Shown here piece after piece: positions 140 to 11,068 of a stretch of 64,000 bases of DNA. Source of the DNA: Candidatus Nitrospira kreftii (GTDB lineage: Bacteria; Nitrospirota; Nitrospiria; Nitrospirales; Nitrospiraceae); the NCBI GenBank assembly GCA_014058405.1, contig CP047423.1, positions 806,001 to 870,000 of the forward strand, read 5' to 3'. The notes below the pieces were generated by a model. That model was not told the DNA's origin. It ran no database searches and saw only the letters and a list, made by a program, of their open reading frames with translations. The stretch's first letter is position 1, and every line of letters begins with the position of its first letter. A program made the position numbers and the translations under genes.

Positions 140-3100
140 TTAAAGCGAGGAGGAGAGGGATGAGCTTTCCGGGTACGAGCGGTACGGACTCGCTCCTTTC
201 TCGCCGTACATTTCATAGACATGCTCGAATACCGCTGAGCATTTCTGTTTGTACAAATCAGGATTGTAGGCTCGTGGAAGGCCTTGATCCAGCAGATCTT
301 CAATGGCCAGCTTCACGCGTGAACGAGCGGAGACGGTCTGTCGCCAATTCAGCACGAGCAGCTGTTTCAGTTTATCCAGTAGGTCTTTGGCCACCTTCTT
401 GAGTTCGGCTCGCTCGGCAGCACTCAATTCCGGGGCAGGACGAGTGAGGATATCAAAGATTACCAATTCCTCTTCAGTGAGGTTCTCCCGGACATGCCGT
501 TCATGCTCGTCGTTCAAACTACGGCTGAGCGCCAGGAGCTCCCTGAAGAGTTCGTCAATATTCCGACTGCCGGCGTTGTAGGATTCAATCAGTTCTTCGA
601 ACTTGCTGAGGTAGTCGGCTCTGGTCCGGTTCAGGCGAACGAGCTTGTTCAGTTGAGCGCGGATCGCCGCTTTGAGTTGTTCCAGGTCGATATTCTTAGT
701 CCTGGACTTCCCAAAGCGTTTTGCCAACGCCTCGAAGTCGATCTTCGTCAGATCGATGATTCCATGGCCGGTTCTTTCCTGAGGAATGTGAAACCCATCC
801 GCAGCGACGGACGCATCCAAAATCGTATTAAGATCGACCATCACGGCTGAAATATCTGCCGGTCCCTCGCCCGTTCGTTCACGAATGCTTTCGGCAATAG
901 TCGCCAGGCAGGCCACGCGGGACGTGAATTCCAACACAGATGGATCGGGCTTCACAGCCTGAAAGAGCACTCGCACCCATCCCTCCTGGCCCAGAAAGTC
1001 TTTGCGGAGAGGGTCGGGAGAGATCAGGCATTCAACCGCCTCGGCAATCTTCGTCAGCCGGTCAAGACTCCCCGCCGGAGTCTGCTCAATTTCTCTGAGA
1101 TTGACGCCATGAGCCAGGCAGAAGGCTTCGGTCTCCGTGATCGCCTGGCGCAGGTTTTCCACGAGCTTTTGCTTGTCCCGGATAGGCTGCTCCCCGCCGC
1201 GGCCTTTGGCATAGATCGCCAGCGCCTTCTCCAACGAGGCAAAGACGTTCGCATAATCCACAATAAGGCCGCTGTGCTTGCCGGGAAACACACGATTGGC
1301 TCGGGCAATCGTCTGCATCAACGTGTGATTCCGCATCGGTTTGTCGAGATACACTGTCGAGCAGCTCGGGGCATCAAAGCCCGTCAGCCACATGGCACAG
1401 ACGAAGACCAGCCGCAATGGATCGTCCGGGTTCTTAAAATCCTCATCCAAAGTCTCGTCATTCATGCGCTTCCGATGCGGTGCGATATCGAGCCCCAGCT
1501 TCTGCATATCTGCAATTTCATTTTGGGTAGACGACACAATCAACGCCATCTCGGTGGTGCGGATCACAGCCAGCCGTGCCTTCAGTTCCAGGATGCGATC
1601 AGGGTCGGCGGCCGTCGTTCCATAAGTCCTGAGCGTAGCCAATTCCTGTTCAACTCGTTGCTCTTCCCTCTTCCAGTGCACTCGGACTTTGTTATGCATT
1701 CGAAGGGCTGTGGCCTTATCGATGGAAATGACCATGGCCTTGCCCTGAAAGCCACGTCCGAGGAAGTGCTGGACAATATCTTTGGCGATCGTCTCCAACC
1801 TGTCCTCTCGAGTGAGCAATTGATATTGCCGGCCCAGCTCACGATCCAGCCGTTTCTCCTGCTCCTCATCCAACCCCGCCGCTTCGATCAGATTGTAGAT
1901 ATCGTCATTGAGGTTCGGATTCTCCAAGCGGAGTTCCGGCGCCCGGTTTTCATAGAACAACGGGACTGTCGCGCCGTCCTCAACCGACTGCTGGAAGTCA
2001 TAGATGGAGACATAGTCGCCGAATACCTCGCGAGTCCGTTCCTCCCCGGCAATGAGAGGCGTCCCCGTAAAGGCAAGGAAGAGCGCCTTGGGAAGGGCCG
2101 CCCGCATGTTCAACGCTAGGGTGTCGTACTGGCTGCGATGGGCTTCATCGGTCAGTACGATCACGTCGGGCCGATCACAGAGCACTTCAGGAGTCTGGAA
2201 CTTGTGAATCAGCGTAAAGACATAGCGGTGATTCTCACTCAGCAACTGTCGGAGCTCTGCCCCACTTTGTGCATGACACAACTCGCTTTCCGTCTCGCTA
2301 ACCGCACCGCAGGCCTTGAAGGTTTTGGCAATCTGGTCGTCCAGTTCGACACGATCTGTCACAACGACAAATTTCCAGTCGCCGGAAATCTTGCGAAGGA
2401 TCTTCTGCGCGAAGAACACCATGGCGAAGCTCTTTCCCGATCCCTGCGTCTGCCAGAACACGCCGCCCCGTCCGTGCCCTTGTTTCCGGGCAACCAGCGT
2501 CGCCGCGATAGCGTTGTTCACACCAAGAAACTGGTGGTTCTGGCCCAGCACTTTGACGAGTCCAGCTTTGTGTTCTGAAAAGAGGCTGAAGTTTTCGAGC
2601 AGATCGAGCAGACGGGATGGTTCACAGGTGCCTCGCAGCATCACTTCGAGCGACACCCGCCGCGGTTCGTCCTCTCGTTCGATCCGCTTCCACTCAAAGA
2701 ACCGATCCCAGTCGGCGGTCAAAGAACCCACGCGACTCTCCGTGCCGTTGGAGGCGATCATCACGCCGTTGAACCAGAAGAGTTGGGGAATATCGGACTT
2801 GTAGCAGGTGAGGTTATCGTCGAAGGCCTGCTGCGCAGGTACACCGGGCTTTTTCAGCTCGATGACGACGAGAGGCAGGCCATTGACGAATCCAACAAGA
2901 TCAGGTCGGCGGGTATAGAGTGTACCGGTGACGCTGAATTGGCTGACAAGGAGAAAGTCGTTGACCGTAGGGTTCTCCCAGTCGATGACGCGGACACGCT
3001 TAGACTCCTGCCCTCCAGTCTTAGCATCTGTGACGGAAATCTCCACTCCGTCCTTGAGAAGCTCGTACACCTCGCGATTCGCCGCAGTTAGGCTCATCAC

Positions 3101-3346
3101 CGAGCGGTCGCGGGTTAATTGATCGATGGCTGCAGAAATAGCTTCCGGTGGAAGGGAGGGATTCAGACGCTCAAGCACGGCACGCAGACGAGGAACCAAC
3201 ACCACCTCGCCCTTGGTTTCCCGCCCCAGCGTACTGGCAATGCCAAAGACCTCCTCCACGGCAGACAACGTCTGCCATCCCATTTCAGTGAAAAGCTGGA
3301 TGGCTGGCTGCTCGACGAGAGAGTCTTCGGTGTAGGATTGAGCCAC
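140..3346 (-). CDS. hsdR: Type I restriction enzyme, R (endonuclease/translocase) subunit
   Basis: The 1068-aa protein is the motor and nuclease subunit of a type I restriction system; it cuts unmodified DNA after ATP-driven translocation. The N-terminal nuclease core is visible as PD at residues 148-149 followed by VIELKK at 161-166, the PD-(D/E)XK pattern. A superfamily 2 helicase follows, with Walker A QTQGSGKS (299-306), DEAH (400-403) and motif III FTGTP. The C-terminal third is helical, as expected for the region that docks on the methylase. The start is GTG, three bases after the stop of the upstream 273-aa gene, so translation is probably coupled. It is transcribed in the same direction as hsdM and hsdS but separated from them by three extra genes. 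Length is normal for the family and no frame damage is seen. Confidence 0.96.
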   Translation of the reverse strand: MAQSYTEDSLVEQPAIQLFTEMGWQTLSAVEEVFGIASTLGRETKGEVVLVPRLRAVLERLNPSLPPEAISAAIDQLTRDRSVMSLTAANREVYELLKDGVEISVTDAKTGGQESKRVRVIDWENPTVNDFLLVSQFSVTGTLYTRRPDLVGFVNGLPLVVIELKKPGVPAQQAFDDNLTCYKSDIPQLFWFNGVMIASNGTESRVGSLTADWDRFFEWKRIEREDEPRRVSLEVMLRGTCEPSRLLDLLENFSLFSEHKAGLVKVLGQNHQFLGVNNAIAATLVARKQGHGRGGVFWQTQGSGKSFAMVFFAQKILRKISGDWKFVVVTDRVELDDQIAKTFKACGAVSETESELCHAQSGAELRQLLSENHRYVFTLIHKFQTPEVLCDRPDVIVLTDEAHRSQYDTLALNMRAALPKALFLAFTGTPLIAGEERTREVFGDYVSIYDFQQSVEDGATVPLFYENRAPELRLENPNLNDDIYNLIEAAGLDEEQEKRLDRELGRQYQLLTREDRLETIAKDIVQHFLGRGFQGKAMVISIDKATALRMHNKVRVHWKREEQRVEQELATLRTYGTTAADPDRILELKARLAVIRTTEMALIVSSTQNEIADMQKLGLDIAPHRKRMNDETLDEDFKNPDDPLRLVFVCAMWLTGFDAPSCSTVYLDKPMRNHTLMQTIARANRVFPGKHSGLIVDYANVFASLEKALAIYAKGRGGEQPIRDKQKLVENLRQAITETEAFCLAHGVNLREIEQTPAGSLDRLTKIAEAVECLISPDPLRKDFLGQEGWVRVLFQAVKPDPSVLEFTSRVACLATIAESIRERTGEGPADISAVMVDLNTILDASVAADGFHIPQERTGHGIIDLTKIDFEALAKRFGKSRTKNIDLEQLKAAIRAQLNKLVRLNRTRADYLSKFEELIESYNAGSRNIDELFRELLALSRSLNDEHERHVRENLTEEELVIFDILTRPAPELSAAERAELKKVAKDLLDKLKQLLVLNWRQTVSARSRVKLAIEDLLDQGLPRAYNPDLYKQKCSAVFEHVYEMYGEKGASPYRSYPESSSLSSSL

Positions 3347-3349
3347 AGG

Positions 3350-4171
3350 CTAAAGAAGATCCATCTGGGTTTCGTGCGGAATCGGGAATACTCCGATGAT
3401 GACCCACGGATTTGGGGAGAAACCATGGAACTGTTTCAGCGTTCCAAGGAAGAAATGGAGGTCACGGCCAGAAAACTCATGGAGGTATTTCTGGCGAACC
3501 TTTTTCAATGCGGCAGTTTCGGAATTGGACGTGGATTTCAAACAATTCAAGAAAAGCTGACCGGTCTCCCAATCAAGCACCTGAAGTTCACTCTCACGGC
3601 CATCGACATCGGCAAACCGATAGGAAAAGTTGTAGGGAAGCTTTGGCATCAACTGGAATGTCTCACGCCAAGCTTCATCTTCAAAGAGATTACCTTGCAA
3701 AGCAGCCTGATGCATTAGGGCGACCTTGGCCGTATCCCAGTCACGCTCACACTCCTCCCAGGTGAAATCAAGAATTCGAGCGGGCTTAAAGACGGCAAGG
3801 GAAAGTGTATTGGCTTTTGCGCCATCAAGCAGGGGTTGGAGGCGATGGTACACTCCGGCGGATTTCAGGAGTAACTGTCGTCGTTCCCTCCAGTTCTTGT
3901 CAGTCCCCAAATGGCCGACACGGCGCATGTCTTTCGGATCTACGAGACGATAGGTCTCCGGCCTGGAATCGGAGCCGCTCTTCACGAGTTCGGCTTCAAT
4001 CCAATCAAACTTTGCGTATTGGTCCTCTTCTTCAAGTCGGCGGAATGGAACCGGGTAGAGTCGCACCCACGATCCATCGGCGCGAATCCCTGCCGTGCAC
4101 ACCATCTCCCCATACTTCCGTGAGAGGGTGGGATAAGTCTTGACCGTGATGAGCACACGTTCCTTCGACAT
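3350..4171 (-). CDS. Unrecognised 273-aa protein in the hsd operon
   Basis: I do not recognise a named domain. The protein begins MSKERVLITVKTYPTLSRKYGE and has a compact N-terminal part rich in aromatic and basic residues (GSWVRLYPVPFRRL), then mixed alpha/beta sequence with many Trp, Arg and Asp residues. There is no signal peptide or membrane segment. It starts 12 bases after the stop of the DUF488 gene and ends 3 bases before hsdR, so it is clearly part of this operon. Its tight coupling to the DUF488 protein suggests the two act together, perhaps as a nucleic-acid-acting defence accessory; that is inference only. Confidence 0.85.
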   Translation of the reverse strand: MSKERVLITVKTYPTLSRKYGEMVCTAGIRADGSWVRLYPVPFRRLEEEDQYAKFDWIEAELVKSGSDSRPETYRLVDPKDMRRVGHLGTDKNWRERRQLLLKSAGVYHRLQPLLDGAKANTLSLAVFKPARILDFTWEECERDWDTAKVALMHQAALQGNLFEDEAWRETFQLMPKLPYNFSYRFADVDGRESELQVLDWETGQLFLNCLKSTSNSETAALKKVRQKYLHEFSGRDLHFFLGTLKQFHGFSPNPWVIIGVFPIPHETQMDLL

Positions 4172-4183
4172 TACTGTCCAGGC

Positions 4184-5080
4184 TTATAAGTGGACCGGTT
4201 GTAACCTCCCATCACCGTGTTGCTCGAACACCTTTGCGACACAATGGCGATGACACTGCTGCGGTAGCTCTTCAAAACACGTCAGCGCGACTCGTTGTTT
4301 GCCATCCACCAGCCACCGCCGAATCCGATCCAGCGCGGCATTTTGAGCTGGCAGATACTCCCGCTCATAGATCGCAAAGAGGGCGTCGTAGTCTTTCTGC
4401 GTTTCAAGATGTCGTCGTTTATCGGAGGCAATGCCCAACTCAGGCAGATGCTCGTATCGTATTCCAACCCCCTCGCACGCTTTGCTCAAGGTGAGCTTCG
4501 AAAATCCATACTTCCGGCTCAATGGGTTGCGTCGCACATCACACAGCAGCGTGACTCCAGCCTGCAACAGCTGGTTGAGATATCCTTCTAGGCATTTGCC
4601 TTCATAGCCGATGGTTAATAATGCCGGGCCTGACTGATTGGATGACGCCTCTGCCACGCGTTTGCGAGATTCTGCGTCCGGCAAAACCTTTTCAACAATT
4701 TCACTCCGCGTTGCGTAATACGGGTATCGACGATAGATCTCAGCAATAAGCGCGTTGCCCCGTAAGCCAGCTTGCTCTCGGCAAAATCTGGCTACCCGTT
4801 CCGGCGAGACCGGACGTCGCATCGCTTCATGCCGACCTTCCTTTGTCAGCTGCCATTGATGCTCATCCTCTTCCAGCAAACCCGTCTCGATAAGCCGACG
4901 CTTATCGGCGTAGGAGGTGAAGGAAAAGCCTCCGAATCGATACGGCACAAACTCATAGCTCGGTTTTTCCTCACATTCCTTCGTGTACAGAAAGAGGAGC
5001 TTCTGGAAATCCATGTGGCCAATTGGACCATCAAGGGCCTTCAGTAGCGTGAGGATCAATCGTTGTCGTTCGAAAAGCAT
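4184..5080 (-). CDS. Winged-helix-like domain fused to DUF488
   Basis: The 298-aa protein has two parts. Residues 1 to about 90 read FQKLLFLYTKE, FVPYRFGGFSF and LTKEGR, the pattern of YwgA/Panacea-like winged-helix domains found in toxin-antitoxin and defence proteins. From about residue 150 comes DUF488: LLTIGYEGK, LCDVRRNPLSRKYGFSK, HLPELG and the signature TCFEELPQQCHRH, with conserved Cys and His that may be catalytic or metal-binding. The biochemical activity of DUF488 is not established to my knowledge. The start is supported by GAGGTAAGG upstream. It lies between the Shedu gene and the 273-aa gene in a same-strand operon, so a defence role is likely by context. Confidence 0.85.
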   Translation of the reverse strand: MLFERQRLILTLLKALDGPIGHMDFQKLLFLYTKECEEKPSYEFVPYRFGGFSFTSYADKRRLIETGLLEEDEHQWQLTKEGRHEAMRRPVSPERVARFCREQAGLRGNALIAEIYRRYPYYATRSEIVEKVLPDAESRKRVAEASSNQSGPALLTIGYEGKCLEGYLNQLLQAGVTLLCDVRRNPLSRKYGFSKLTLSKACEGVGIRYEHLPELGIASDKRRHLETQKDYDALFAIYEREYLPAQNAALDRIRRWLVDGKQRVALTCFEELPQQCHRHCVAKVFEQHGDGRLQPVHL

Positions 5081-5103: not shown

Positions 5104-5180
5104 TCAGGCTGCAATCATTCCCGACAGCAGCCGCGGGAGCAGCAGGTCACGGGTGCGGCGGACCTTCGCTATGACTTTAA
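5104..5180 (-). pseudogene. Relic of an hsdS 3' end
   Basis: Read on the minus strand, this stretch encodes KVRRTRDLLLPRLLSGMIAA followed by TGA. That is the conserved C-terminal tail of type I specificity subunits, and it matches the tail of the intact hsdS in this window (LRRTRDLLLPRLLPGE) with about three mismatches over roughly 41 bases. No start codon or recognition domain precedes it. The last residues differ from the intact gene, so it probably derives from a different hsdS allele rather than a simple copy. It lies in the 123-base gap between the Shedu and DUF488 genes. Confidence 0.75.
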
Positions 5181-5203
5181 TCTTCGCTCTCCTTCTCAGA
5201 AAC

Positions 5204-6301
5204 CTAAGGACTGTTATCTGTGTGTTCGACAATGAATTTGGCACGCTCGTAAAGTTCGTCAAATGTCAGAATCTCGGGATTGGTTACGCTTCGCCTGAAC
5301 AGCTCAAAGGTGTTTCTCTTGGCAATGTCGCTCAACTGAGTCGTTGCGCCAATTACGAGAATGCCCTTGGGGTGCACGGTGTAAATTTTCTCTTGCAGGA
5401 ACGCTTCACGATTCTGTTCAGCCTGTGACCCCTCCACTTCCCAACGTCTACAGTTCGCCTGAAGTTGCGAGACGCCACCAGTAAGCTCCTCACCGAGTTG
5501 CCAAGCGCCATTTCTGTAAGACTTGCTTCCCAAAAGCAGAGAATCAGGCCGCTTGATCTCCACGAGAACCGTAAATTTCATCTCCGCTTCTGTTCGCTCT
5601 AGAAAATCACCCCTTTCTGTCCCTTTACCCACCACATTTGTACCGCCATACTGAGGCTGAGGCTGGACGGACTTCAGGATCTGATATTTCAGGCCATAAC
5701 CAAAAATCCAGGTGTTCCGTTCAAAGAAGTCTTGCCACCAGTTTTCCTGCCGAGTTTGCTTAAGAGAGAGGCGAAATGTTTCTAGCGCCCTTTTACGCTC
5801 CGCGTGGATTCGAGCGTAGGACAGCTGCGTTGCCAGGTCTGGATTCACAAGGACAAGTGCCTTCCAAATGTCGTCGGAATATCCCTTGGCAAGCAGCAGC
5901 TTGATGACTTTGGCTCGGCTAACATCTGCCTGGATGATTTCCTCCTCGCGTCCAACGACCAAACTGGTCTTTCCGAACCCAATCTTTCCCTTCGTTGCAA
6001 TGGTGTAAAGATTGTTCAGTTGCTGAAAAAGCTTCAACGTCGGCTCCGTGTGCAAACACAACTTTACTTCTTCCCCAGCTTGCATGGTGCTGAGAGGTTT
6101 TGCAGGCACATCTTCCCATGTGGCCTTCGGAGTCTTGCGTTGATACACAAAAGTGATGTTCACACTCGCGTCAACGTTGTGGGGGTTTGCGACGATTCCT
6201 GACCGCAGAACAAGCCGTGTCGTTGACGTTTCGTGCAAAACTTTGTCGGACACTGCGGCTGATTGCAGCGACGTCCTGTTCACTTCGTACTTTTCGGCCA
6301 T
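5204..6301 (-). CDS. sduA: Shedu-family (DUF4263) anti-phage nuclease
   Basis: The 365-aa protein carries a C-terminal DUF4263 domain (about 185-345): WWQDFFERNTWIFGYGL, then VLVEIKRPD at 245-253 with E248 and K250 as the PD-(D/E)XK catalytic pair, then LGEELTGGVSQL. DUF4263 defines Shedu (SduA), a single-gene nuclease defence system. The N-terminal half (1-180) is the variable region thought to sense infection; here it is beta-rich and has no named domain I recognise. The ATG is three bases after the hsdS stop, so it is co-translated with the restriction genes. It is bounded on the far side by an hsdS tail relic. Family assignment is strong; phage specificity is unknown. Confidence 0.9.
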   Translation of the reverse strand: MAEKYEVNRTSLQSAAVSDKVLHETSTTRLVLRSGIVANPHNVDASVNITFVYQRKTPKATWEDVPAKPLSTMQAGEEVKLCLHTEPTLKLFQQLNNLYTIATKGKIGFGKTSLVVGREEEIIQADVSRAKVIKLLLAKGYSDDIWKALVLVNPDLATQLSYARIHAERKRALETFRLSLKQTRQENWWQDFFERNTWIFGYGLKYQILKSVQPQPQYGGTNVVGKGTERGDFLERTEAEMKFTVLVEIKRPDSLLLGSKSYRNGAWQLGEELTGGVSQLQANCRRWEVEGSQAEQNREAFLQEKIYTVHPKGILVIGATTQLSDIAKRNTFELFRRSVTNPEILTFDELYERAKFIVEHTDNSP

Positions 6302-6304
6302 AGC

Positions 6305-7591
<1,287 letters not shown>

Positions 7592-7593
7592 CG

Positions 7594-9657
7594 TCACAAT
7601 TCCAGAATCTCCGCTACGTTGCATGCGATGGTTTGTTCGAGTTCGCGAGCCTGTGCATTCAGCGTTTCGAGTTCTTCATTCAGCGTTTCAAGCTGTTCTT
7701 TGAAGTCCTCGTCGCTGACTGCTTCGCCTGGTGCCACACCGACGTAGCGGCCAGGATTGAGGCTCCAGCCTTGCGCCTCGATCTCCTTGATCGTCGCGGC
7801 TTTGCATAGTCCTGGCACATCGGCGAATTTCAGTTTCTTCCCGAAGACTTCCTTCAGTTTGGCTTCTGCTTCCGCTCCGCCAAGGGTAAAATCAGGCTCC
7901 TCGCCTCGATAGAGACGCACGACGTTGGCCAAGAAGCCGATCTGGCCTTCAGTCCAGTCGCGGTGCGCTCGATCCACTTGGCGATAGATATGGCGGGCAT
8001 CTATGAACAACACGGTGTCGCTGTAGCGCGCCCCGCGTTGTTCACCCTCACCCCCGCCTCTCCCAGAGGGAGAGGGAAGGGATGAAGCGATTTCTCTGAG
8101 CAAGCTTTCGGTGTCTTCGAAGACCCGAGCGTTTGTGAAACGGAGCACGGTGTGACCAAGAGAACGAAGGTAGCCATCACGTTTGGCGTCCTTTCTCTGT
8201 CGGTCGGGCGTATCATGAACCGCACCATCAAGCTCGACAACCAGGCCGTATTTAGGGCAGAAGAAATCGACGATGTAGTCACCGATCTGGTGCTGCCTGC
8301 GAAACTTGAGGTCAGCAAGTTGTCGGTCACGCAACAACTGCCACAGCACGTCTTCGGCGGGTGTCTGTTTCTTGCGTAGCTCCCTCGCTTGATCCACCAA
8401 GCCTTGAAACTTGAAGCCACCCCGACCCTCTCCCTTTGGGAGAGGGTGGTTCGAAGAACCGGGTGAGGGTGGACAAGGCGGAAGCTGCGCTTTCGCCTTG
8501 TCCATGAACCACAGCGTGCATGGCAAAGTTACCGTGTAGAACATATTCGGTCCGACGGCGACCATCACATCGACGGCGCGGGCTTCGATGAGCTGCTTGC
8601 GTAATTCCTGTTCGGAAGAGCGGGCATCGGAGGCGCTGTTGGCCATGACGAATCCGGCGCGTCCGGTCTGGCTTAACGTCGAATAGAAGAGCTGAATCCA
8701 AAGATAGTTGGCATTGTCCGTGCGCGGCAGGCCGAAGGGATAGCGACGGCCCTTGCCGACTTCTGCTTCCAACCGCTCCTTATCGACGGCATTCACATTA
8801 AACGGTGGATTGGCGAGGACGAAGTCGAACCGGCCGGTGCTGTTGTGCAGATCATCGTAGTAGGTGATGGCTTCTTTGATATCCCCTTCGAGGCCGTGCA
8901 TGGCCAGGTTCATGCGGCAGAGGGAAACGGTTGCGGCAACTTTCTCCTGCCCATGAATGGCGAGTTCCGACGACGGGTTCTTCTTGTGCTCCGCCACGAA
9001 GCGGGCGCTCTGGACGAACATACCGCCCGACCCGCAGGCCGGGTCGAGAATGCGGCCATGGTACGGTTCCAACACTTCCACCAGGAGACGGACGATACTG
9101 GAGGGCGTGTAGAACTCACCGCCCTTCTGCCCTTCCGTCCTGGCGAATTCGCCGAGGAAGTATTCGTAGATGCGCCCGAAGGCGTCATAGTCGATGGTGG
9201 GCGGGATCTCGGAGACGCGCTTGAGGAGTTCTTTCAGGAGCGTGCTGTTGAAGATTTCGTAGGTCTTGGGCAGTACCCCAGCGAGCTGGGGATTGTGCTT
9301 CTCAATGTCGCGCATGGCTTCATTGATCGCCTTGCCGGCATTGCTCCCCTCCGGCAATCGAAGGAGCTTGTCGAAGCGGGCGTTTGGCGTGAGATAGAGT
9401 ACCCCTTCGGCATGGTAGGCGGCTGGTTCATCCACGCGAGAGCCGCGTCGTGACGAGGACGCCATCTTCTCTAGACCAGAGCGAATCTTTGCAAAGCGGA
9501 CATCGGCGAAGCGGAGGAAGATGAGCCCGAGAACCGGAGTGGAATACTGCGCGGCGTTGAGGCCGCTATTGGCTCGCAGCTGATCGGCGGCATCCCAGAG
9601 ACGCTTTTCCAGCGCGTTCGTCGCCGTGTCTTTTTCAGAAGGAGCGACCCAGAGCAT
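7594..9657 (-). CDS. hsdM: Type I restriction-modification methylase with inserted DUF559 domain
   Basis: This is an adenine-N6 methyltransferase of 687 aa from the ATG at 9657 (AAAGG upstream); an upstream extension to 9849 looks non-coding. The HsdM N-terminal helical domain is followed by the SAM-binding motif DPACGSGG (205-212) and the catalytic NPPF (283-286). After [12 protein letters not shown] (379-389) the HsdM sequence is interrupted, and it resumes near residue 545 with [19 protein letters not shown]. The intervening 150 or so residues form a DUF559 Vsr-like endonuclease domain (about 415-525, with IVDFFCP and VVELDG as probable metal-binding core) bounded by Gly/Pro-rich segments translated from palindromic repeats. 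Without the insert the protein would be about 540 aa, normal for HsdM. The frame is intact, so a fused product is expected. Confidence 0.93.
8044..8080 (+). repeat. Left inverted terminal repeat with palindrome
   Basis: CACCCTCACCC is followed by a palindrome built on CTCTCCC and GGGAGAGGG with a short AGA-like loop. It matches the opposite edge of the insertion in inverted orientation. It is translated in hsdM as Pro/Ser/Gly-rich sequence ([14 protein letters not shown] on the minus strand). Confidence 0.7.
8416..8472 (-). repeat. Right inverted terminal repeat with palindrome
   Basis: On the minus strand this reads CCACCCTCACCC, then an extra small palindrome (GGTTCTTCGAACC), then CCCTCTCCC and GGGAGAGGG. 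It mirrors the left edge of the DUF559 insertion. It is translated as [11 protein letters not shown] in hsdM. Confidence 0.7.
8470..8504. repeat. Long hairpin at the insertion edge
   Basis: TGGACAAGGCGGAAGC and GCTTTCGCCTTGTCCA form a 16-bp stem with one mismatch around a 3-base TGC loop. One arm lies in conserved hsdM sequence (encoding MDKAK) and the other belongs to the inserted side, so the hairpin straddles the junction. Confidence 0.75.
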
Positions 9658-9849
9658 AGGTTGCCTTTCTAGAGGGTCGTTTCGGTGGGGCAGTGTACCT
9701 GAAACCGAAAAATAGCTCGACCCCCTTGAGGTCTGAGCGGAGCTTATAAACGCCCATCCACTCGCGCGCTTCAACCGAACTTGCCTCTGGTTGCCGTACG
9801 TCATCCCTTCCGATAAAGTGAGCCCTACGGAATCAGAGGGGCTCTCCAA

Positions 9850-10377: not shown

Positions 10378-10463
10378 GCGACCTCTCGCCTCGACTTGCT
10401 TGTCATTTGCAGTCGAGCAGCGTACAGTTATTATCGATTGTGATCCGCTGTGGATTGACCAAT

Positions 10464-10718
10464 ATGAATGAACAACAGTTGCTAGAACGTATCGTGGTGA
10501 ACCCTCAAATTTTTGGTGGCAAGCCGATCATTCGCGGGATGCGGATAGCTGTCGAGCATGTCCTTGGCATGTTGGCTGCTGGAGATACACCGGAGATGAT
10601 TCTGAAGGAGTACTCTTTCTTGGAGCGAGAGGATATTCAGGCGTGCCTTCTGTTTGCTCATCGTGTGCTGAGCGGTGAGCATGTCTATGATCGGATGCCT
10701 CTGACTAAATCTGCATGA
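10464..10718 (+). CDS. DUF433 antitoxin-like protein
   Basis: The 84-aa protein is a typical DUF433 small DNA-binding protein: RIVVNPQIFGGKPIIRGMRI, then VEHVLGMLAAGDTPEMILKE and an YSFLEREDIQACL helix. DUF433 proteins commonly act as the antitoxin half of a pair with a PIN-like DUF5615 toxin, as here. The ATG at 10464 was chosen because the DUF433 consensus begins right after it; a longer frame from 10269 overlaps the DUF4112 gene and has no homology. The stop overlaps the next start (ATGA). Confidence 0.9.
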   Translation: MNEQQLLERIVVNPQIFGGKPIIRGMRIAVEHVLGMLAAGDTPEMILKEYSFLEREDIQACLLFAHRVLSGEHVYDRMPLTKSA

Positions 10719-11068
10719 AGTTTCTTCTCGATGTCTGCTGTTCTTCGCACTCGCTTCGGCGCCTATTGGTCGAATGTGGTCACGATGTGAGACTCGTGAG
10801 TGAAACCGACCCTCGTGCTTCGGACGAGACAGTGTTGGCCATGGCACACGAGGAAGGCCGCGTCGTCATCACGGAAGACAAAGATTTTGGCGAGTTGATT
10901 GCTGTCCAGCGCCGTCCTCACTCTGGTATCATTCGATTCCTTGAATTGTCAGTCTCAGAACAAGTCACAGCAATGCAAGAAGTCCTGAGTCACTATCGAA
11001 GTGAATTGGAGTTGAGAGCCGTGATGGTCGTGACCCGTGGTCGCATACGAGTTCGCCCTAGAACCTAG
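10715..11068 (+). CDS. DUF5615 PIN-like toxin
   Basis: The 117-aa protein has the PIN-like fold markers of DUF5615: MKFLLDVCC at the N-terminus with Asp6, SETDPRASDETVLAMAHEEG, and VVITEDKDFGEL with a second acidic cluster. PIN-like toxins are predicted metal-dependent ribonucleases. Four-base overlap with the DUF433 gene shows co-translation as a toxin-antitoxin unit. The C-terminal tail ends in an Arg-rich stretch. Toxic activity is a family-level prediction. Confidence 0.88.
   Translation: MKFLLDVCCSSHSLRRLLVECGHDVRLVSETDPRASDETVLAMAHEEGRVVITEDKDFGELIAVQRRPHSGIIRFLELSVSEQVTAMQEVLSHYRSELELRAVMVVTRGRIRVRPRT

Follow-up and report, generated by a model that had tools for sequence, protein, structure and literature searches.

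The stretch of DNA analyzed here (the window; 64,000 nucleotides of the genome of Candidatus Nitrospira kreftii) carries near its start a type I restriction-modification (RM) operon, encoded on the minus strand. From upstream to downstream, it comprises hsdM (7594..9849; PF02384 at 6.4e-75, PF12161, and PF04480), encoding a methylase with an in-frame DUF559 insertion, hsdS for the specificity subunit (6305..7624; PF01420, 1.6e-24), a gene for the Shedu protein SduA (DUF4263; 5204..6301; PF14082 at 1.1e-31, PF21407 at 1e-26, and PDLC00394 at 1.9e-68), the two genes studied here, D (4184..5080) and B (3350..4171), and hsdR for the restriction subunit (140..3346; PF18766 at 2.7e-68 and PF04313 at 1.8e-48). 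D and B both start with ATG and encode proteins of 298 and 273 aa; in the list of open reading frames, 12 bases separate the stop of D from the start of B, and three bases separate the stop of B from the start of hsdR. These frames, their coordinates, and the 12-base spacing are as described in the initial annotation, which was made from the sequence alone. The pair therefore sits between the Shedu gene and hsdR, and Shedu, immediately before D, is a second defense gene embedded in the same operon. Both D and B are under strong purifying selection, with Nei-Gojobori dN/dS values of 0.10 and 0.08 respectively between the window and a contig from Nitrospira sp. W63 (L056), the closest named relative among the matches listed (B 91% and D 86% identical).

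Two further features of this region lie outside the pair. The insertion in HsdM spans ~152 residues (458–609; window 8020–8480), contains a DUF559 nuclease-like domain, has an inverted repeat at each boundary (21 and 28 nt), and is absent from the HsdM of another locus (L057), to which the window protein aligns in two parts (52–457 and 610–750). Another DUF559 match in the genome (G000:C1:1950160) is likewise part of a long open frame. Beyond the RM operon, on the plus strand (10442–11068), are two small adjacent genes that resemble a toxin-antitoxin pair, with an antitoxin of the DUF433 type and a PIN-like toxin (DUF5615-type).

Protein D displays a bimodular architecture. Its C-terminal moiety bears the DUF488 signature noted in the initial annotation, PF04343 matching residues 167–284 at 1.7e-26 with 93.6 bits against a curated cut-off of 22.2, and the PADLOC model PDLC04505 (PDC-M19A) matches residues 3–295 at 1.1e-103. 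Sequence searches of the PDB found no relative for either D or B, and both proteins were modeled with AlphaFold2, using alignments of 60 of 136 collected D sequences and 70 of 142 collected B sequences. In the model of D (mean pLDDT 96.1), residues 151–298 (4187..4630, minus strand) are predicted to adopt a PTP/rhodanese-like Rossmannoid fold. This module matches PTP-fold phosphatases with Z scores of 8.5–9.3, among them the laforin DSP (9.3), SsoPTP (8.9), and PRL-1 (8.7), while tetrapyrrole-methylase folds score at least as high as the PTPs, with a Z of 10.2 for a CbiL-type methylase. As modeled, its Rossmannoid fold, with an active-site loop between strand and helix, places it in the PTP/rhodanese-phosphatase superfamily.

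The strand-to-helix turn of this module carries the motif C268-x-E270-(x)5-C276-H277-R278 (4247..4279, minus strand), which is invariant in all 60 rows of the alignment and present in each of the 121 D proteins compared. In the model, C268 closes the strand and R278 opens the next helix, which is the position of the PTP loop, with a C-x9-R spacing. The C-x5-R loop of PTP phosphatases proper is not found in the window protein; taking C268 as the nucleophile gives C-x9-R instead, so that any phosphatase chemistry is putative. We consider it probable that the DUF488 moiety is an enzyme. Burroughs and Aravind are said to have described, in 2023, a RapZ-C-DUF488-DUF4326 clade of the rhodanese-phosphatase superfamily with a predicted role in DNA-end processing in conflict systems; D shares the DUF488 domain with this clade, and its PTP-like fold was found here independently. 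A housekeeping origin of D was considered and rejected. The other DUF488 protein encoded in the genome lacks the CHR motif and is therefore not a close paralogue.

The N-terminal moiety of D (residues 2–141; 4658..5077, minus strand) is predicted to be a winged-helix-containing domain. Its best match in VIA-align is 7yk3_B (Z 12.2, rmsd 3.2, 136 aligned residues), other winged-helix entries scoring ~8. This is a chain of the Mycobacterium tuberculosis DarTG complex named DNA ADP-ribosyl glycohydrolase, which we read as the DarG C-terminal domain on the basis of the chain length, of a passage of PMC11481870, and of a paper title that both this article and PMC12170906 cite. According to these same sources, the DarG C-terminal domain neutralizes DarT via ssDNA mimicry. 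With such a fold, an acidic surface might be expected in D, and we considered an acidic, ssDNA-mimicking N terminus that plugs the OB groove of B (described below); the median net charge of +4 across long D forms (residues 1–145) does not support it. D and B also differ from DarTG, defined by DarT plus a macro/NADAR DarG, in that Pfam finds no ADP-ribosyltransferase and no macro or NADAR domain in either protein. The Panacea-like N terminus proposed in the initial annotation shows up in some relatives, with SocA_Panacea (PF13274) matching eight of 60 D sequences in the alignment (best E 2.1e-4); the window copy has no such match.

Protein B had been reported as belonging to no recognizable family. 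This is true of Pfam and NCBIfam, where it has no match, and not of PADLOC, whose model PDLC04508 (PDC-M19B) matches residues 1–272 at 4.8e-105. The AlphaFold2 model of B (pLDDT 91.4) is a tandem OB-fold. Foldseek ranks highest a murine HIN-type DNA-binding protein in complex with dsDNA (4jbm_A, 1.4e-4), next to which stands CST bound to telomeric ssDNA (2.2e-4); below these come the telomere end-binding proteins Teb1 and TEBP, SSB, and RecO. No toxin is among the fold-search matches listed. B thus resembles HIN-200, telomere end-binding, and SSB tandem OB proteins at the level of fold, but with ~10% identity and a high whole-length rmsd, so we infer no descent. Since the full-length HIN matches have an rmsd of ~5–6.7, only the tandem OB assignment is firm. 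OB-folds also bind proteins and RNA. We consider nucleic-acid binding by B likely.

Sequence profiles connect B to a described family, the dual OB-containing domain (DuOB; PF22557). This model does not match the window B even at E values up to 1, and it matches two of 70 B homologues (best 3.9e-5); one PDC-M19B relative, in genome G004, passes its cut-off with 29.2 vs. 27 bits. Aligned with hhalign, the B profile matches canonical DuOBs with an E value of 2.2e-5 and a moderate probability of 76%, and a closer subgroup of B proteins does so with 2.9e-6 and 88%, over a mere 60 columns. The alignment of the two profiles keeps the order of a CxAG motif, a W-x-R-x-P region, an SL, and a D(W). Judged by these profiles, B is a divergent relative of DuOB, homologous at the superfamily level. 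The canonical DuOB genes of the phylum (L156–L164) adjoin two DUF488 genes, and PADLOC reads the one trio tested, at L156, as PDC-M45A, B, and C. Since DuOB with two DUF488 proteins is PDC-M45, the two systems can be united in a DuOB-DUF488 group: both consist of the same ingredients encoded by adjacent genes, but in PDC-M45 a canonical DuOB is accompanied by two DUF488 proteins, which makes three genes, whereas PDC-M19 has a single DUF488, to which a further N-terminal domain is often attached. Upstream of two of these DuOB genes (L157 and L158) is a gene that by eye resembles a DUF1156-type DNA methylase, and an ATPase follows at L158.

Because both halves match PADLOC PDC-M19, this kind of pair has already been cataloged. 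The A and B homologues are adjacent, in order, and matched end to end at ~1e-104, and nothing separates the window pair from PDC-M19. The latter is a candidate system for which the PADLOC models have no description, and PHROGs holds D and B as two families of unknown function. A literature search for PDC-M19 and PDC-M45 yielded no paper naming either one and matches for PDC-S11 only, and a search for DuOB yielded nothing relevant. A 2024 preprint by Payne et al. on "genetically embedded" systems is the likely source of PDC-M19. As far as we have checked, what is added here is the DuOB link between PDC-M19 and PDC-M45, the predicted folds of D (DarG C-terminal-domain-like and PTP-like), the predicted tandem OB-fold of B, and the RM relics described below.

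The pairing of B with a DUF488 gene is highly conserved. A DUF488 gene adjoins B in 40/42 loci on viral contigs, in 79/80 loci from genomes (the best 80 of at least 574 relatives, in 588 stretches, and hence biased toward close relatives), in 18 of the 20 matches among 295 genomes of the phylum, and in 11 of 12 annotated plasmid or phage regions, out of 30 matches. The exceptions in the viral and genome sets (L023, L047, and L076) are all cut by a contig end, and those in the phylum set are cut in the same way (L138) or are an 80-aa fragment (L155). A seemingly solitary B at L151 was discarded as an exception since D is present once the frames are read from stop to stop. The Sulfolobales plasmid pSOG2 (L007), which truly has no DUF488 adjoining B, is the sole such case among the 12 plasmid or phage regions. 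As the genome carries merely two DUF488 matches in 4.1 Mb, this adjacency is not due to chance. Moreover, the distances between B proteins correlate with those between their D partners (Mantel r 0.76, 0/2000 permutations; 121 loci kept out of 131 after removal of near-duplicates), part of which is shared ancestry. The neighborhood survey thus shows that the two genes do anything but rarely co-occur, and the functional pair suggested by the initial annotation is upheld. That D and B form a physical complex is, in our view, very likely.

The arrangement of the pair varies more than its composition. In a tally that counts near-identical viral contigs, 117 loci have D then B on the same strand (103 of them with a long D), 17 are convergent, and one has B then D (L132). 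In 105/117 tandem D-first loci the gap is between -30 and +25. The convergent loci (L027, L033, L035–L041, L045, L046, L048, L049, L051, and L053–L055) are seen only with a short D (~150–220 aa), and their 3' ends mostly overlap by 29–56 nt, two just abutting. Overall, the N-terminal domain is absent from 25 of the 121 D proteins, all of which keep the DUF488 motif. At three loci (L066, L139, and L142), a B that is 63–66% identical to the window protein is paired with a short DUF488 protein (33–36% identical), and no convincing sign of an N-terminal domain was found near these short genes, the best candidate being a 55-residue stretch (E 0.001) elsewhere in L142. Since a short DUF488 accompanies such a close B, the DUF488 half seems, from these comparisons, to be essential and the N-terminal half optional. 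Other copies carry a different N terminus. The DUF488 proteins of two Streptomyces plasmids (L005 and L012) are extended at the N terminus by a region that, by eye, resembles XRE, and a ParB-DUF488 fusion directly precedes B in the Sulfolobales plasmid pBEU9E1 (L006), with a ParB-type N terminus where D has a Panacea-like one. Archaeal ParB-DUF488 fusions are described in PMC12704722, according to which a ParB-fold protein with a DUF488-HTH fusion binds CTP.

The pair is found in Gordonia phages (in L008 between the repressor and the integrase) and on conjugative plasmids, and B is also found on the Sulfolobales plasmids pBEU9E1 and pSOG2. In the host genus, it was found in 0 of the 20 same-genus genomes listed. 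On the two Sulfolobales plasmids, B is followed by a gene of 163–168 aa (L006 5870–6358 and L007 5852–6355) that resembles PD-(D/E)XK by eye and has no match in Pfam or PADLOC. In L194 (genome G041; 4417–4659), an 80-codon fragment of B precedes a 1050-aa ORF that looks like a restriction-methylase by eye, and this could be a decayed pair.

Although the tests used here place most copies elsewhere, association with RM systems is recurrent. A comparison with the Hsd proteins of the window finds Hsd-like genes close to the pair at 12 of 80 loci from genomes (the best 80 of at least 574 relatives; L057, L065, L067, L079, L080, L081, L083, L084, L085, L094, L096, and L129), L112 being left out since its HsdM lies 6 kb away. 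Pfam adds seven RM-linked loci (L105, L106, L109, L115, L120, L124, and L133), with N6_N4 methylase/ResIII (type III-like), Eco57I/IIG-like, Type ISP, and DUF1156 methylase types. By these two tests, about three quarters of these best 80 loci have no RM gene next door. In a Pfam scan of adjacent genes that skipped two ORFs (67 same-strand neighbors of at least 150 aa, at 51/80 loci), RM domains rank first. Conversely, relatives of the window HsdR at least 77% identical are encoded elsewhere in the family (matches at 1e-100 in 23/175 genomes), and neither D nor B was found within reach of 15 sister hsdR loci, some of which end before the slot. In those sister loci that cover the slot, the gene before hsdR is PDC-M03B (L178), PDC-M04B (L182), PDC-S11 (L186), or a weak LeoBC match (L188), and in L189 it is hsdS itself. 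This reading of the slot as a site for cargo agrees with the location of DarTG2 between hsdS and hsdR in EPEC, a site termed a potential hotspot in PMC12255303.

The DNA around the pair retains traces of such exchanges. Just before D lies a relic of the 3' end of a foreign hsdS (5104..5162, minus strand), recognized by its translation and by a 43-nt repeat (5120–5162) that is 93% identical to the end of the resident hsdS (6345–6387). The relic reads ...RRTRDLLLPRLLSGMIAA-stop, the resident tail ...PRLLPGELSV, and the two copies of the hsdS end bracket the Shedu gene (5104–6391). It looks as if defense cargo stacks behind hsdS tails. An SGMIAA tail precedes D in L056 as well, where an intact D-B pair lies between an hsdS tail and remnants of an hsdR head and an hsdS tail (7329–7375 and 9146–9484): B is followed by a truncated hsdR head (~39 codons, then a stop) and, 0.3 kb further on, by another hsdS-tail piece. 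No hsd gene was found on this 10-kb contig. hsdS tails just before D are also present in L059 and L088. The simplest reading of these relics is that the pair moves when conserved hsdS tails recombine, and that it may outlive a lost RM operon. Together with its carriage by plasmids and phages, the relics around the intact L056 pair agree with the earlier proposal of a module that exists outside RM systems and has entered RM operons. The pair is real, conserved, mobile, and already listed as the candidate system PDC-M19, and we hold with strong confidence that it is mobile defense-associated cargo.

How might this pair work? We propose, with roughly even confidence, that D and B constitute a two-protein anti-mobile-element module carried as cargo between hsdS and hsdR. 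B, as a tandem OB protein of the DuOB group, would bind nucleic acid, with single-stranded or broken DNA as the likeliest target. D would bind B, helped in its long form by the DarG C-terminal/Panacea-like domain acting as a docking domain, and would act on the nucleic acid held by B, probably on its phosphate or ends, via a PTP-fold DUF488 site formed by C268, E270, and C276-H277-R278 with R183, K190, and K195. Beside RM systems, the pair might act on DNA that has already been cut or exposed, and so keep the invader's DNA from being repaired, ligated, or replicated. DNA ends as the actual substrate are a tentative and rather doubtful part of this scheme. As for a putative anti-phage effect, the context consists of a slot for defense genes and of the association with several types of RM system.

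A role in counter-defense or element maintenance would likewise be compatible with the presence of the pair on phages and conjugative plasmids. The pair might repair or modify nucleic acid in order to protect the element that carries it, and be co-located with defense genes by accident. Its presence in Gordonia phages, on conjugative plasmids, and on Sulfolobales plasmids speaks for this explanation, as does the fact that DUF488 occurs alone in chromosomes, including the second copy here. We consider it unlikely, however, since the pair recurs with different types of RM operon and in a slot that holds other defense candidates, and since its distribution in the host genus is sporadic, as is often seen for defense genes. 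If the pair regulated or assisted the RM operon, with the winged helix of D binding DNA and tuning hsd expression or HsdR activity, this would account for the winged-helix core, the tight embedding directly before hsdR, and the association with several RM types. Yet by the tests used here most copies do not adjoin RM genes, the pair occurs on plasmids, archaeal replicons, and phages, the L056 pair is intact amid RM relics, the sister RM operons inspected do without the pair, and short D proteins have no winged helix, which together make this role very improbable.

The initial annotation had raised the possibility of a toxin-antitoxin module, which could be DarTG-like. D would then be the antitoxin, combining a docking domain with a reversing enzyme, and the toxic part, restrained until infection, would be B or some DNA-modifying activity of the two proteins. 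It keeps some weight because of the N-terminal domain of D, with its predicted fold of the DarT-neutralizing DarG domain and relatives matching SocA_Panacea; the D-first order with tight spacing, the carriage by plasmids and phages, and the position of DarTG2 itself between hsdS and hsdR in EPEC (according to PMC12255303) are also in line with it. It founders on the short D forms, which have no antitoxin-like domain and at three loci accompany a close B, while the DUF488 motif is universal. Furthermore, convergent genes with overlapping or abutting ends are unusual for toxin-antitoxin operons, the N terminus of D is not acidic, unlike what ssDNA mimicry by DarG entails, and the predicted tandem OB-fold of B matched no toxin. 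On these sequence comparisons and models, we consider a toxin-antitoxin module improbable, and we favor the anti-mobile-element module.

A bolder version of the anti-mobile-element proposal, speculative and rather unlikely as it stands, would unite PDC-M19 and PDC-M45 in a single bacterial and archaeal immune superfamily. A tandem-OB sensor resembling cytosolic DNA sensors (HIN-200) or telomere end-binders would grip single strands or the ends of DNA, and a PTP-fold DUF488 would irreversibly alter the end, delivering a second strike behind any type of RM system. The docking domains (DarG C-terminal-domain/Panacea-like, XRE-like, or ParB-like) would be swappable, and the module would move between RM operons by recombination at hsdS tails.

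DUF488 is a common uncharacterized family. Its pairing with a tandem-OB protein in a recurrent module suggests, as a hypothesis, that the substrate is DNA ends or single strands, while the conserved motif offers a target for mutagenesis. The relics of hsdS tails and hsdR heads point to a route by which defense cargo may move between RM operons and persist after these have decayed. If a step that modifies DNA ends does follow restriction, this would explain why the same cargo recurs with different types of RM system.
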